Part shown: piece by piece, positions 5,286-9,431 of the stretch
How positions within the stretch are numbered: the first letter of the stretch is position 1
Layout of the letters: every line of letters begins with the position of its first letter
DNA from: Phreatobacter cathodiphilus
GTDB taxonomy: Bacteria > Pseudomonadota > Alphaproteobacteria > Rhizobiales > Phreatobacteraceae
Reading direction: 5' to 3'
Length of the DNA stretch: 64,000 nucleotides
Assembly: GCF_003008515.1 (NCBI RefSeq)
Contig: NZ_CP027668.1
Coordinates: 1,046,001-1,110,000, forward strand
Notes under the pieces: generated by a model
Told to the model about the DNA's origin: nothing
Databases searched by the model: none
What the model saw: only the letters and a program-made list of their open reading frames with translations
Translations under genes and position numbers: made by a program

Positions 5286-6212
5286 TCAGGCCGGCTTCTT
5301 CTTCGCGCCGCGCTTGTGCGCCTTCAAGGCCGCCAATCGGCCGTCGCGCCATTTCGACAGGCGCGCTATGCGTTCGGGGGACTGCTCGCCCGGCCACTCC
5401 GCCATGATCGCCGCCTCGTTCTGGGGTGTGAAGACCTTGCGGCCGGTCAGGCGCGTCAGGCTCGGGCCGTAGCGCCGGTTGTAGTCGGGGATGCCGCCGG
5501 GGGCGTTGAGCTCGATGGTTTCGAAGGGGCCCATGAAGGACCAGCGCAGACCGAGCCCGTCGCGGATGGTCTTGTCGAGGTCCTCCGGCGAGACGACGCC
5601 CGAGCCCACGAGGTCGAAGGCCTCCGCCATCAGCACTGCCTGCAGGCGGTTGAGCACGAAGCCGTCGATCTCCTTCTTCACGGTCACCGCCACCTGGCCG
5701 ACCTTCTCGTAGATGGCGCGGGCCTTCTCCACGAGCTTGGGGTCGGTCCAGGGCGCCGGGCAGAGCTCGACGATGGGCACGAGGTGAGGGGGGTTCACCG
5801 GATGGGCGACGAGCACGCGCGAGCGGTGCTTGAGGTCCTTCGCCCAGAGCGAGGAGAACAGGAACGAGGTGGAGGAGACGACGATGGCCGAGGGCGGGGC
5901 GAGGGCGTCGATCTCGCCGTGGATGGCGATCTTCGCCTCCACCGTCTCCGGCCCGTTCTCCTGCACGAAGGCGCAGCCCTTGAGGGCTTCGGCGAGGGTG
6001 GTGCAGGCGACGAGGTTTTTCGCCGATCCCTTCGCGTCCTTCACGAGATCGAGGTCGGCGAGTTCCTTCAGGTTCTTCGCGATATGGGCTTTCGCCGCCT
6101 CGGCGACGCCGGGGACCGGGTCGTAGAGGGCGGTTCTCCAGCCGTGGCTGCAGAAGACCGTGGCCCAGGCCCGGCCGATCAGGCCCGATCCGACGATGGC
6201 GATGGTGGGCAT
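5286..6212 (-). CDS. 3-hydroxyacyl-CoA dehydrogenase-like NAD-dependent enzyme (lambda-crystallin/L-carnitine dehydrogenase type)
   Basis: A 308-residue NAD-dependent dehydrogenase. The N-terminal Rossmann motif is IAIVGSGLIGRAW. The catalytic block is VLVAHPVNPPHLVPIVE, with the His and Glu expected for this superfamily. The C-terminal helical domain begins near KKEIDGFVLNRLQ. The start at 6212 opens directly on the Rossmann strand and has GAGG upstream. A longer frame to 6404 would only add translated palindromic repeat. The length fits lambda-crystallin/L-gulonate or single-domain carnitine dehydrogenases more than the fatty acid oxidation enzyme FadB. It is 37 bases upstream of the BKACE gene and probably makes its keto-acid substrate. 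Confidence 0.85.
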   Translation of the reverse strand: MPTIAIVGSGLIGRAWATVFCSHGWRTALYDPVPGVAEAAKAHIAKNLKELADLDLVKDAKGSAKNLVACTTLAEALKGCAFVQENGPETVEAKIAIHGEIDALAPPSAIVVSSTSFLFSSLWAKDLKHRSRVLVAHPVNPPHLVPIVELCPAPWTDPKLVEKARAIYEKVGQVAVTVKKEIDGFVLNRLQAVLMAEAFDLVGSGVVSPEDLDKTIRDGLGLRWSFMGPFETIELNAPGGIPDYNRRYGPSLTRLTGRKVFTPQNEAAIMAEWPGEQSPERIARLSKWRDGRLAALKAHKRGAKKKPA

Positions 6213-6213
6213 G

Positions 6214-6702
6214 TCAGGAACCTCGTGTCGTATGGGTCGTCTTGTGCTTCGCGCGTGGATTCGCGTGAGCGTCGGCGGATGTGGCGCTTTCCCCTCCCCC
6301 CGCTTGCGGCGGGGAGGGGTCAGGGGTGGGGGGCATGATTGCGCCAGCCCGTGTGTGGCATGCCGCAAGGATCGTCTCGACCGCGCCGTCGATGCTTTCG
6401 GCAATGTGCTGGTTGCTCAACCGGACGATTTCGTAACCGCGCGATCTCAAGTCGGCGTCACGCCTCTGATCATTCCGCGCCTGCGCGCCGTATCCATGGT
6501 GATCACCGTCGATCTCGATGACCAACTTCAGTCCGTGGCAGGTGAAATCGACGATGTACGGCCCGACCGGCGCCTGCCGCCGCGGATGGAAGCCGGCAAT
6601 GTCGAACTGCCGGATGGCGTTCCAGATCAGCCGCTCTTGAAAGGTCGCTTCCCGCCTCAGCCGGCGGGCGAGGGGGATCCGGCGATCGCGGCGTCTGTCC
6701 AT
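6214..6702 (-). CDS. DUF559 endonuclease-fold protein with repeat-encoded C-terminal tail
   Basis: A 162-residue protein whose core (about residues 10-115) carries the DUF559/Vsr-like pattern. It shows FQERLIWNAIRQ, FHPRRQAPVGPYIVDF, KLVIEIDGDHHG, DLRSRGYEIVRLSN. The acidic residues in VDF and EIDG are the likely metal-binding site of a PD-(D/E)XK-like fold; activity on DNA is inferred. The start at 6702 is the first Met before the core. From about residue 123 the frame runs into a palindromic repeat (PPTPDPSPPQAGGGE) and stops one base before the dehydrogenase start. The gene splits a catabolic operon and is bracketed by 44-base inverted repeats, which suggests an inserted unit. Confidence 0.75.
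   Translation of the reverse strand: MDRRRDRRIPLARRLRREATFQERLIWNAIRQFDIAGFHPRRQAPVGPYIVDFTCHGLKLVIEIDGDHHGYGAQARNDQRRDADLRSRGYEIVRLSNQHIAESIDGAVETILAACHTRAGAIMPPTPDPSPPQAGGGESATSADAHANPRAKHKTTHTTRGS
6289..6332. repeat. GC-rich palindromic repeat, left copy bracketing the DUF559 gene
   Basis: 44 bases beginning TTCCCCTCCCCCCGCTTGCG, with an internal CCCCTCCCC...GGGGAGGGG palindrome. It is the exact reverse complement of 6709-6752. It lies within the 3' part of the DUF559 reading frame. Confidence 0.9.
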
Positions 6703-6708
6703 CGCGGG

Positions 6709-6752
6709 CCCCCACCCCTGACCCCTCCCCGCCGCAAGCGGGGGGAGGGGAA
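6709..6752. repeat. GC-rich palindromic repeat, right copy bracketing the DUF559 gene
   Basis: The perfect 44-base inverted copy of 6289-6332. It ends six bases before the DUF559 start codon on the minus strand. Confidence 0.9.
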
Positions 6753-6810
6753 TGGAGCCATTCCCGGAGCGCGAGCGCAAGGTCGCGGCGACCGAGACGT
6801 TCGAGCGCTT

Positions 6811-6858
6811 TTCCCCTCCCGCCCGCTTGGCGAGCGGGGAGGGGGCAGGGGTGGGGGG
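6811..6858. repeat. Diverged third copy of the same palindromic repeat
   Basis: It starts TTCCCCTCCCGCCCGCTTGG and ends CAGGGGTGGGGGG, in the same orientation as 6289-6332 but with several substitutions. It sits between the DUF559 unit and the end of the LivM-LivG-LivF gene. Confidence 0.8.
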
Positions 6859-6896
6859 AAGATGTTCTACTGTCCCCGACCGATTTATGCGCCCCC

Positions 6897-9431
6897 TCAC
6901 AGCCACAACACCTTGCGCCGCAGCTCCTGGTCCTCGCGCAGGTCCTTCGACGCGCCGTGCCAGGTCACCGCGCCGCGCTCCAGCGCCACGGTGCGGTCCG
7001 ACAGCGCCAGGGCGAGGTCGAGATGGTGGTCGACGATGATGATCGACACCTCGTGGCGCAGCTTGTCGAAGGCCTCGAAGAGCTCCTCGGTGATGGCCGG
7101 CGACAGGCCCTCGAAGGGCTCGTCCAGCAGCAGCAGGCGGGTGTCGCCGACGAGGGCGCGGGCCACCGCCACCATCTGCTGCTCGCCGCCCGACAGGAAG
7201 TCGGCGGACGTCGTCCAGCGCTCCTTCAGCCGCGGGAAGAACGCCAGCACCCGGTCCTCGTCCCAGTGGCGGCCGGCGCCGGTCAGGCGCTTCAGGCGGC
7301 CGAGCATCAGGTTGTCCTTGACGGAGAGCCCGGCGAAGAGACCGCGGCCCTGCGGTACGTAGCCGACGCCACGCCGCGCCACCTGGTCGGCAGGCAGGCC
7401 CGAGAGCCGGTCGCCGGCCAGCGTCACCGTGCCCGAGGCGGGCGGTGCGATGCCCGTGATGGTCTTCAGAACCGTCGACTTGCCCGCGCCGTTCCGGCCA
7501 AGCAGGGCGACGATCTCGCCGCCCTTCACGTCGAAGGTCACGTCGTTGAGGATGTGGCTCTTGCCGTAGAAGGTGTTGACCCCGTCGAGGGTCAGCAGCG
7601 TCTCGGCCGTCGCCGCCGAGGCCCGCTCCTTCGCCGCCACAGCATGAGCGCCCGAGCCGAGATAGACGGCCTGGACCCGCTCCGAGGACCGGGCCTCCTC
7701 GACCGTGCCGTCCACCAGAACCTCGCCGTCGTTCATGACGGTGACGTGGTCGGCGAGCTGGAACACCCGGTCGATGTCGTGCTCGACCAGCAGCACGGGG
7801 ATGTCGCCGGAGATCGTCTTGACGATGTCGCCGACGCGCTTCCTCTCGGCCGCCGCGAGACCCGCCAGCGGCTCGTCGAGGAGCAGGATGCGCGGCCGTG
7901 TCGCCAGCGCCAGCGCCATGTCGACGAGGCGCTGGCCGCCATAGGAGAGCGATCCCGCCTCCGCCTGCTCGATGCCACCGAGGCCGAGATAGCGGATGAG
8001 CGTGGCGGTATCCTCGCCGATGCTGGGCAGGGTGCTCGCCTCGGCCCAGACCCCGAACCGGCCGGGATGGCGCGCCTGCACGGCGAGACGCACGTTCTCC
8101 TCGATGGTGAGGCCGGGGAAGAGATTGGTGATCTGGAAGGAGCGGCCGACGCCGGCCTGCGTGATCGCCTGGGGGCTGAGGCCGCCGACCTCGCCGCCGT
8201 CGAGCGTTACCGTGCCGCGGTCGGGCGGGAACATGCCGGACAGGAGGTTGAAGGCCGTGGTCTTGCCGGCGCCGTTGGGGCCGATCAGGGCATGCAGGGT
8301 GCGGTCCCGGACGGTGAAGCCGATGCCGCGCACCGCTCTGATGCCGCCGAAGCTCTTGGCGATGTCGTCGACCACCAGGACCGCGTCGTTGCCGGTCTCG
8401 GTCGGCGTCCGCGTCTCGCGGACGAACTGCGGCGGCACGGGACCCACCGCCTCGACGCGTCGCGCCGCCATGGCGGCATCGGTCTCGATGCGCTTGCGGA
8501 AGGGCGCGAGGACGCGCTCGGCGACGCCGATGAGGCCGGTGGGCGAAAAGACGATGAAGCCGACGAAGAGCAGGCCGAAGACCAGCAGCCAGCTCGAGGT
8601 GAAGAGCGAGAGGTACTCGCGGAACAGCATGAAGAACAGCGCGCCGAGCGCCGGGCCCATGAAGGAGCGCATGCCGCCGATCACCACCATGGCAAGGAGC
8701 TCGCCGGAGAACTGGATGGCGATCGGGTCGGCCGAGGTGAAGCGGTGGTGGAAGGCGGAGAGCACGCCGGCAAAGCCCGTCAGGGTGGCCGAGATGGTGA
8801 AGGCGATCAGCTTGTAGCGGTCGGTGTCGTAGCCGACGAAGCGGGCACGCACCTCGTTCTCGCGCACCGCCACCAGCACGCTGCCGACGGGTGAACGGTG
8901 GAAGCGCTGGAGGAGGAAGACCACGGCGAAGCCGATGGCGGCGACGAGGACGTAGAAGGCCCAGGGGTTGTTGAGATCGGCGATGCCCCAGTGCGGCCTG
9001 ACGACGCCGCCGAGACCGTTCTCACCGCCGGTGAGCTCGGTCCAGCGGAAGGAAACCGTGTAGGCGACGGCCGTCATGGCGAGGGTGAGGAGCGAGAAAT
9101 AGACGCCGCGCCGCCTGAGGATCAGCAGGCCGAGCAGGGTGGAGACCACACCGACGAAGAGGATCGAGAACCCCGCCGGCAGCAGCATCTGGCCGGGGAA
9201 GAAATGGCGTTGCGCCAGCACCGCCGCATAGGCGCCGATGCCGAAGAAGGCGCCGTGGCCGAAGGAGACGAGGCCGGTATGGCCGACCAGGATGTTCAGC
9301 GCCATGGCGGCGATGGCGAAGATCACGACGTCGGTGGCCGAGGTCAGCGTCAGGCCGATCGACAGCATGAAGACCGGCAGGACGACGAGCGCCGCGATGG
9401 CCGCGAGGAGGTTGCGGAGGGTCGGGGTCAT
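6897..9431 (-). CDS. LivM-LivG-LivF triple-fusion ABC transporter protein (permease plus two ATPases)
   Basis: One uninterrupted 844-residue protein holds three subunits normally encoded separately. Residues 1-310 are a LivM-type permease with many membrane spans and VGHTGLVSFGHGAFFG. Residues 348-595 are a LivG-type ATPase with Walker A GPNGAGKTT (384-392), an unusual signature LSYGGQRLVD (495-504) and Walker B ILLLDEP. Residues 611-844 are a LivF-type ATPase with GRNGAGKST, LSGGEQQM (746-753) and LLLLDEP. The two linkers (about 311-347 and 596-610) are Ala/Arg/Glu-rich. LivM-LivG fusions are known; all three together is less common. It would pair with LivH, whose gene ends 4 bases from this start, and with LivK. 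The substrate is unknown. Confidence 0.92.
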   Translation of the reverse strand: MTPTLRNLLAAIAALVVLPVFMLSIGLTLTSATDVVIFAIAAMALNILVGHTGLVSFGHGAFFGIGAYAAVLAQRHFFPGQMLLPAGFSILFVGVVSTLLGLLILRRRGVYFSLLTLAMTAVAYTVSFRWTELTGGENGLGGVVRPHWGIADLNNPWAFYVLVAAIGFAVVFLLQRFHRSPVGSVLVAVRENEVRARFVGYDTDRYKLIAFTISATLTGFAGVLSAFHHRFTSADPIAIQFSGELLAMVVIGGMRSFMGPALGALFFMLFREYLSLFTSSWLLVFGLLFVGFIVFSPTGLIGVAERVLAPFRKRIETDAAMAARRVEAVGPVPPQFVRETRTPTETGNDAVLVVDDIAKSFGGIRAVRGIGFTVRDRTLHALIGPNGAGKTTAFNLLSGMFPPDRGTVTLDGGEVGGLSPQAITQAGVGRSFQITNLFPGLTIEENVRLAVQARHPGRFGVWAEASTLPSIGEDTATLIRYLGLGGIEQAEAGSLSYGGQRLVDMALALATRPRILLLDEPLAGLAAAERKRVGDIVKTISGDIPVLLVEHDIDRVFQLADHVTVMNDGEVLVDGTVEEARSSERVQAVYLGSGAHAVAAKERASAATAETLLTLDGVNTFYGKSHILNDVTFDVKGGEIVALLGRNGAGKSTVLKTITGIAPPASGTVTLAGDRLSGLPADQVARRGVGYVPQGRGLFAGLSVKDNLMLGRLKRLTGAGRHWDEDRVLAFFPRLKERWTTSADFLSGGEQQMVAVARALVGDTRLLLLDEPFEGLSPAITEELFEAFDKLRHEVSIIIVDHHLDLALALSDRTVALERGAVTWHGASKDLREDQELRRKVLWL

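Follow-up and report, generated by a model that had tools for sequence, protein, structure and literature searches.

REPs are among the commonest bacterial repeats, and to our knowledge an enzyme is known only for the GTAG-tagged ones. The protein family DUF559 is still named as a family of unknown function in Pfam. The homing endonuclease I-Bth0305I, the catalytic domain of which resembles DUF559 (see below), is intron-borne in a phage, and we know of no REP bracket around its gene. In the described RAYT systems, as far as the accessible parts of the reports tell, REPs of a gene-specific type flank a single nuclease gene, the REPs are dispersed as inverted pairs, and the gene copies are few and non-identical (PMC3116915, PMC2817692, PMC3733652). 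The DUF559 locus described here is like them in all these respects, i.e., bracketing by REPs of its own type, dispersal of inverted pairs, low copy number and non-identical copies. However, it differs in the nuclease, which has a predicted Vsr/homing-type fold and is not a Y1 HUH enzyme, and in the tag, which is GGGTGRGG-like and not GTAG. For a second class, the CGTC-tagged REPs, the accessible part of an earlier report states that there is no dedicated transposase (Di Nocera et al. 2013, PMC3733652). These, too, are palindromic repeats of alphaproteobacteria for which no transposase is known, but their tag is different and CGTC-type heads were found near GIY-YIG genes rather than near DUF559 genes.

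The DUF559 protein of the window resembles Vsr in its predicted fold. According to the accessible part of its account, Caulobacter VsrA carries a DUF559 domain and is needed for a DNA-damage response when a cytosine methyltransferase is missing, and the authors of that account propose that it is a mismatch-repair enzyme (PMC12907096). No mention of palindromic repeats was found in that part. In the open-access literature no paper was found that links DUF559 with REPs, and papers combining DUF559 with palindromic sequences dealt with CRISPR or NAD metabolism; a link of GIY-YIG with REP sequences was not found either. The available RepRanger paper (PMC12306157) mentions neither nuclease nor RAYT nor transposase.

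Layout of the DUF559 locus and its repeats

The analyzed stretch of the Phreatobacter cathodiphilus genome, called the window here, comprises 64,000 nucleotides, and the features of the locus are collected in Table 1. Orthologs of the dehydrogenase gene adjoin the site in 12 congeners, in one of them on a separate contig.

Table 1. Features at the DUF559 locus (positions within the window).
Feature	Position	Strand	Remarks
3-hydroxyacyl-CoA-dehydrogenase-like gene, downstream of the unit	5286..6212	-	ORF; start ATG 6210-6212; product name presumed from the sequence
DUF559 gene, 162 aa	6214..6702	-	likely start ATG 6702; DUF559 core residues 11-115
REP 3' of the DUF559 gene	6289..6332	+	tag (GGGGTGGGGG) toward the gene; partly translated as the C-terminus of the gene
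REP 5' of the DUF559 gene	6709..6752	-	tag 6 nt ahead of the ATG, at the position of a ribosome-binding site
REPIN	6709..6857	.	two inverted REPs, tags outward; predicted to form a single hairpin as ssDNA
Second REP of the REPIN, diverged	6811..6857	+	
Liv-type branched-chain transporter ORF, permease and ATPase parts	6897..9431	-	kept beside the site across the genus; name presumed from the sequence

The sequence-only reading had described the gene as bracketed by two perfect inverted repeats and accompanied by a third, diverged copy. This geometry was verified: the two arms of 44 nt are 100% complementary and lie 376 nt apart, the third copy has 24 of 25 nt in common with the first over the conserved part, and the C-terminal part of the DUF559 gene does run through the downstream repeat. 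One REPIN (6709-6857) plus one REP (6289-6332) describes the layout better than the two ends of a transposon do, and was preferred to a classical transposon carrying a terminal inverted repeat at either end. A classical insertion sequence did not fit either, since the four REP-type DUF559 proteins of the genome are only 39-52% identical pairwise and their repeats differ. A longer DUF559 ORF of 230 aa, starting with GTG 6906, was rejected as too long. In the orthologs, the frame begins with the ATG that immediately follows the upstream repeat; this ATG corresponds to position 6702 in the window, and therefore a length of 162 aa was assigned.

Within the window, the 22-nt core of the repeat was found at these three places only, with up to four mismatches allowed. 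The own genome is a single contig of 4,494,445 bases, and in it a BLAST search yielded 38 matches to the window repeat, 30 of which could be grouped into 15 pairs on opposite strands, their starts being separated by 67-105 bp, and the remaining eight were single. This pairing indicated that the repeats are organized as REPINs. The exact core had 25 matches, compared to none for the pattern read backwards. As single-stranded DNA, the REP pair of the window was predicted to form one hairpin (-70 kcal/mol, z -9.9), and the single REPs folded just slightly better than shuffled sequences (z -1.55, -2.27 and -1.17). Features that define REPs and REPINs were thus found for the window repeat, namely a short palindrome, dispersal, inverted pairs, and one long hairpin per pair. 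By eye, its tag is neither GTAG nor CGTC. A scan for promoters and terminators at the repeats did not call any promoter-like or terminator-like site.

The protein of the window was assigned to DUF559 (PF04480) over residues 11-115 with an E value of 3.1e-29 and 101.5 bits, compared to a Pfam cut-off of 20.6, and its best match on a genome contig was a protein of Phreatobacter sp. Bin_33_7 with 83% identity. A structure model (pLDDT 88) was compared with solved structures using Foldseek. The closest ones were 3hrl, annotated as endonuclease-like, and 3r3p, the catalytic domain of I-Bth0305I, and a profile search of the PDB agreed on both. For 3r3p the E values were 5.7e-5 for the sequence profile and 1.3e-4 for Foldseek. 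Vsr itself (1vsr) was a weaker structural match than these two and ranked sixth with an E value of 0.018. PDB profile matches with E values from 0.36 upward were set aside as chance, and PADLOC matches, weak and partial (best 3.6e-4), were not counted as evidence for a defense system. Eleven residues were invariant in 41 aligned DUF559 proteins (R6, W17, Q33, D42, F43, E53, D55, H59, D68, R71 and R84), and dN/dS was 0.08-0.29 across nine ortholog pairs, in some of which dS was saturated. In these alignments, DUF559 is under purifying selection and keeps its conserved acidic and histidine residues.

The Y1 transposase domain (PF01797) had no match in the own genome and was present in 15 of 61 relatives. 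A resident RAYT therefore does not explain the REPINs of this genome, and the mobilization of the window repeats by a RAYT in trans was likewise not supported. The earlier proposal of a RAYT/REP-like layout in which a Vsr-like nuclease replaces the transposase was supported by the recurrence of the bracket and by the occupied and empty sites (see below); the Pfam match of the gene is to DUF559 and not to Y1.

Recurrence of the bracket and lineage of the repeats

The same test was used throughout for the bracket, i.e., an inverted repeat with a score of at least 18, the two arms of which lie no more than 600 bp from the gene. It was applied to 97 DUF559 loci from relatives, other classes, plasmids and other phyla. 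A strong inverted repeat was present at 77 of them and spanned the gene at 61, and at 20 loci this test found none. Among the fetched loci of the relatives, 33 of 40 were positive (26 with gene-spanning arms), a count in which orthologous loci at the same site within the genus are not independent; outside the genus it was 19 of 25 (15 spanning). Of 64 DUF559 matches in the relatives 48 were used, 43 strong ones and five core paralogs, and of the best 43 in the 61 relatives 35 were bracketed (the 40 fetched loci plus L004, L067 and L074). The loci found on genome contigs with the window protein were positive in 11 of 12 cases and the phylum sample in 20 of 28, including 10 of 15 in classes other than Alphaproteobacteria; both sets consist of best-scoring loci and are not random. 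The test was also positive for 11 of 14 plasmid loci, among which all three of Deinococcus, one of three of Cyanobacteria and not the single one of Bacillota were positive, and a Latescibacterota contig (L142) was negative. On a plasmid of Sphingomonas parapaucimobilis (L310), a REP-bracketed DUF559 gene was observed between sufB and sufC of an Fe-S assembly operon. Inverted repeats also bracket the DUF559 genes of three Deinococcus plasmids (L305, L306, L314); in two of these the repeats are long and near-perfect with the tags outward, which places the gene within a pair resembling a REPIN.

Several controls were performed. Of 30 cold-shock genes from these 61 genomes, one had a strong inverted repeat nearby and none a spanning one, and none of 30 ParE genes was bracketed (Fisher test against 33/40 DUF559 loci, 2e-13). 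The core DUF559 paralogs, i.e., L005 and, in relatives, four matches that are weak or L005-like, were also free of brackets (0/5). The own genome was sampled in 40 stretches of 20 kb at even spacing; of 14,560 sliding positions there, 601 (4.1%) had a comparable inverted repeat within 600 bp and 41 (0.28%) had one spanning a gene-sized gap. GIY-YIG genes (PF01541) had been picked as a neutral control. They turned out to be bracketed themselves, with a strong inverted repeat near 17 of 30 and spanning 11 of 30, and they were dropped as a control and replaced by cold-shock and ParE genes. This result showed that brackets are not peculiar to DUF559. Taken together, the bracket geometry is real, recurrent and, among the families tried, specific to nuclease genes. 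The expectation that DUF559 genes elsewhere would be associated with repeats was thereby borne out (77/97 against 0/30, 1/30, 0/5 and 4% of random positions), and the controls also showed that such repeats are not equally common beside all genes.

The usual bracket contains a hairpin (CCCTCTCCC...GGGAGAGGG or relatives), a short spacer or a second hairpin, and then the tag GG(G/A)TG(A/G)GG. Within 200 bp, the tag GGRTGRGG was present at 34 of 40 DUF559 loci of the relatives versus 2 of 30 cold-shock genes, at 15 of 28 loci of the phylum sample and at 3 of 12 contig loci. It was also found at 11 of 30 GIY-YIG loci, in part via the CCTCATCCTGAGG repeat, which holds the complement of the tag. CGTCATnC heads were detected at 11 of 30 GIY-YIG loci, rather than at DUF559 loci (relatives 2/40, phylum sample 3/28, contig set 0/12), and at 3 of 30 cold-shock genes. 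The 17 arms at GIY-YIG genes (among L144-L173, e.g., L145, L152, L166) included five with a GTCATnC head as in CGTC-tagged REPs and five, in Phreatobacter, of the CCTCATCCTGAGG type, the remainder being mixed. The CCTCATCCTGAGG-type repeat beside one GIY-YIG gene (L164) was the commonest of five repeats counted in the 40 sampled stretches of the own genome (L262-L301), with 44 places in 800 kb. The polarity of the bracket could be classed for 62 of 95 loci with spanning arms, with the result that 27 had the tag inward, 8 outward, 14 were symmetric and 13 fell in no class; owing to this mixture no single polarity rule is claimed.

The own genome contains five DUF559 genes, four of which are flanked by palindromic repeats, each of another type. 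The fifth (L005), within a frame of 932 aa, has no palindromic repeat. Dispersal elsewhere in the genome was found for the window type and for the L128 type, the latter at six places in a sample of 18% of the genome; in this sample no L127-type repeat turned up away from its own gene, and the L110 type was seen a single time, as a partial copy. At 16 loci of the genus, the two flanks of the same gene had a median alignment score of 31.5 (range 11-50), compared to 17.5 (13-27) for flanks of different genes within one genome, and the flanks did not match at L101 and L106 (scores 15 and 11). Between genomes, the median was 38 (n=32) for proteins sharing 65% identity or more and 16 (n=186) for the rest, a contrast that is partly explained by shared sites; the contrast within genomes is unaffected by them. 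Judged from these alignments, the repeat type within the genus tracks the DUF559 lineage and not the genome. As in the REP-RAYT systems, a nuclease gene is flanked by its own REP type, and that each gene has its own type was seen within the genus.

Repeats were also counted per taxon with a REP pattern that misses some types, including that of the window, and that is present in several DUF559-free genomes. With this pattern, at least three copies were found in 11 of the 18 families that have a strong DUF559 match and in 5 of the 32 that do not (Fisher 0.0016), and in 16 of 26 genomes with versus 8 of 35 without (p 0.0034). The DUF559-free genomes with repeats include G007, G010, G012, G016 and G051. 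In G007 and G010 window-type REPs are present, and the orthologous gene is missing from the site between livF and the dehydrogenase gene.

Occupied and empty sites in the genus

The site between the transporter and dehydrogenase genes was compared in 12 Phreatobacter genomes. The unit was present in five and missing from six, and in one case the end of a contig cut the site. The gap between livF and the dehydrogenase gene was 665-683 bases in the five occupied genomes and 32, 47, 47, 143, 189 and 272 bases in the six without the unit. Another palindromic repeat, by eye of the CGTC type, was seen in three of these six gaps. In a genus tree based on 2.45 kb, occupied and empty sites alternated between sisters (G005/G011, G006/G010, and G002 with G009/G004), and the site was empty in the outgroup trio. 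This patchy presence would be explained equally well by repeated gain or by one old insertion that was cleanly lost at least three times.

The distribution of two REPINs of the window type points to insertion. REPIN1 was found in G000 and G001 only, and its flanking genes abut in nine of the ten other congeners, with no clear result for the tenth (G007). Compared between G000 and G001, REPIN1 has 93% identity in its REP arms and 55% in its loop. A complete REPIN2 was found in G000 alone; G001 retains roughly the first 10 of its bases, and it is missing from the ten others. Based on this comparison, both REPINs are young insertions. The remnant of REPIN2 in G001 (L318) looks like what would be left after removal of the other bases from a tag edge. 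Both young REPINs (L316, 1140-1470 and 6400-6720) lie at overlapping stop and start codons, and GCATGA-like short direct repeats were seen by eye at both of their edges. Empty and occupied sites, which the sequence-only reading had suggested comparing, were thus found for the DUF559 unit as well as for two REPINs.

Possible functions of the nuclease

The explanation that we favor, with a probability of roughly two in three, is that DUF559 is a nuclease dedicated to the REP that brackets it, i.e., a functional analog of RAYT with an unrelated Vsr/homing-endonuclease fold. DUF559 would then presumably cut REPs. It might recognize the hairpin and the flanking tag (GGGTGRGG, or GGGGTGGGGG in the window) and nick or break the DNA there. 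Strand exchange or break repair could then excise a REPIN, folded as one long hairpin, or copy it into a different intergenic site, and gene conversion due to this cutting could keep the REP arms alike. The DUF559 gene itself would persist where it is, as a helper that has been partly domesticated, with its translation start behind a REP tag.

As a rather unlikely alternative, DUF559 could be a homing-type nuclease that stands alone and inserts itself between genes, the REPs being landing sites or borders for its spread that are themselves spread otherwise and not mobilized by DUF559. I-Bth0305I is indeed among the closest solved folds, DUF559 genes are found between genes of operons (e.g., sufB/sufC and paaD/paaZ), and GIY-YIG, another homing-type family, is bracketed too. 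However, each gene has its own repeat type, which follows the nuclease lineage, and this would not be predicted by landing on pre-existing REPs; in addition, the repeats are more numerous in families with DUF559.

It is quite improbable that DUF559 is a Vsr-like host nuclease for repair or quality control and that the bracket is an expression cassette, in which the 5' hairpin and tag control translation and the 3' REP forms the mRNA end. The position of the REP tag 6 nt ahead of ATG 6702, and directly ahead of the start elsewhere (e.g., L092), would be in accordance with such a role, as would the mismatch-repair function proposed in the accessible part of the VsrA account (PMC12907096). Against it stand the lack of called promoter-like or terminator-like sites at the repeats, the dispersal of the same repeats away from DUF559, and the core DUF559 paralogs, which occupy conserved positions without repeats (0/5). 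That the bracket is a by-product, REPs being common in short intergenic spaces where small acquired genes land, is hardly credible and already disfavored. It would agree with the abundance of REPs in these genomes and with the brackets at GIY-YIG genes, but other small genes show nothing comparable (cold-shock 1/30; ParE, often acquired, 0/30), and random positions reach 4.1%, or 0.28% for spanning repeats.

The view of DUF559 as a REP-dedicated nuclease can be extended to a more general proposal, for which we regard the odds as even: several unrelated dedicated nucleases, and not RAYT alone, may serve bacterial REPs, with DUF559 acting on GGGTGRGG-tagged REPs and single-domain GIY-YIG proteins on CGTC-tagged and other REPs. 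If true, this would supply what was missing in the report of 2013, in which the CGTC REPs had no dedicated transposase, and it would mean that REP mobilization arose more than once, by the capture of different nuclease folds. A second, and perhaps a third, nuclease family acting on other REP classes would make the spread of repeats testable in non-pathogenic alphaproteobacteria and Deinococcus. A REP-dedicated role would also supply a function for DUF559, and the link between DUF559 and REPs would bear on how VsrA of Caulobacter damages DNA. Repeats of a familiar, spreading kind may thus have an enzyme partner that was not recognized before.
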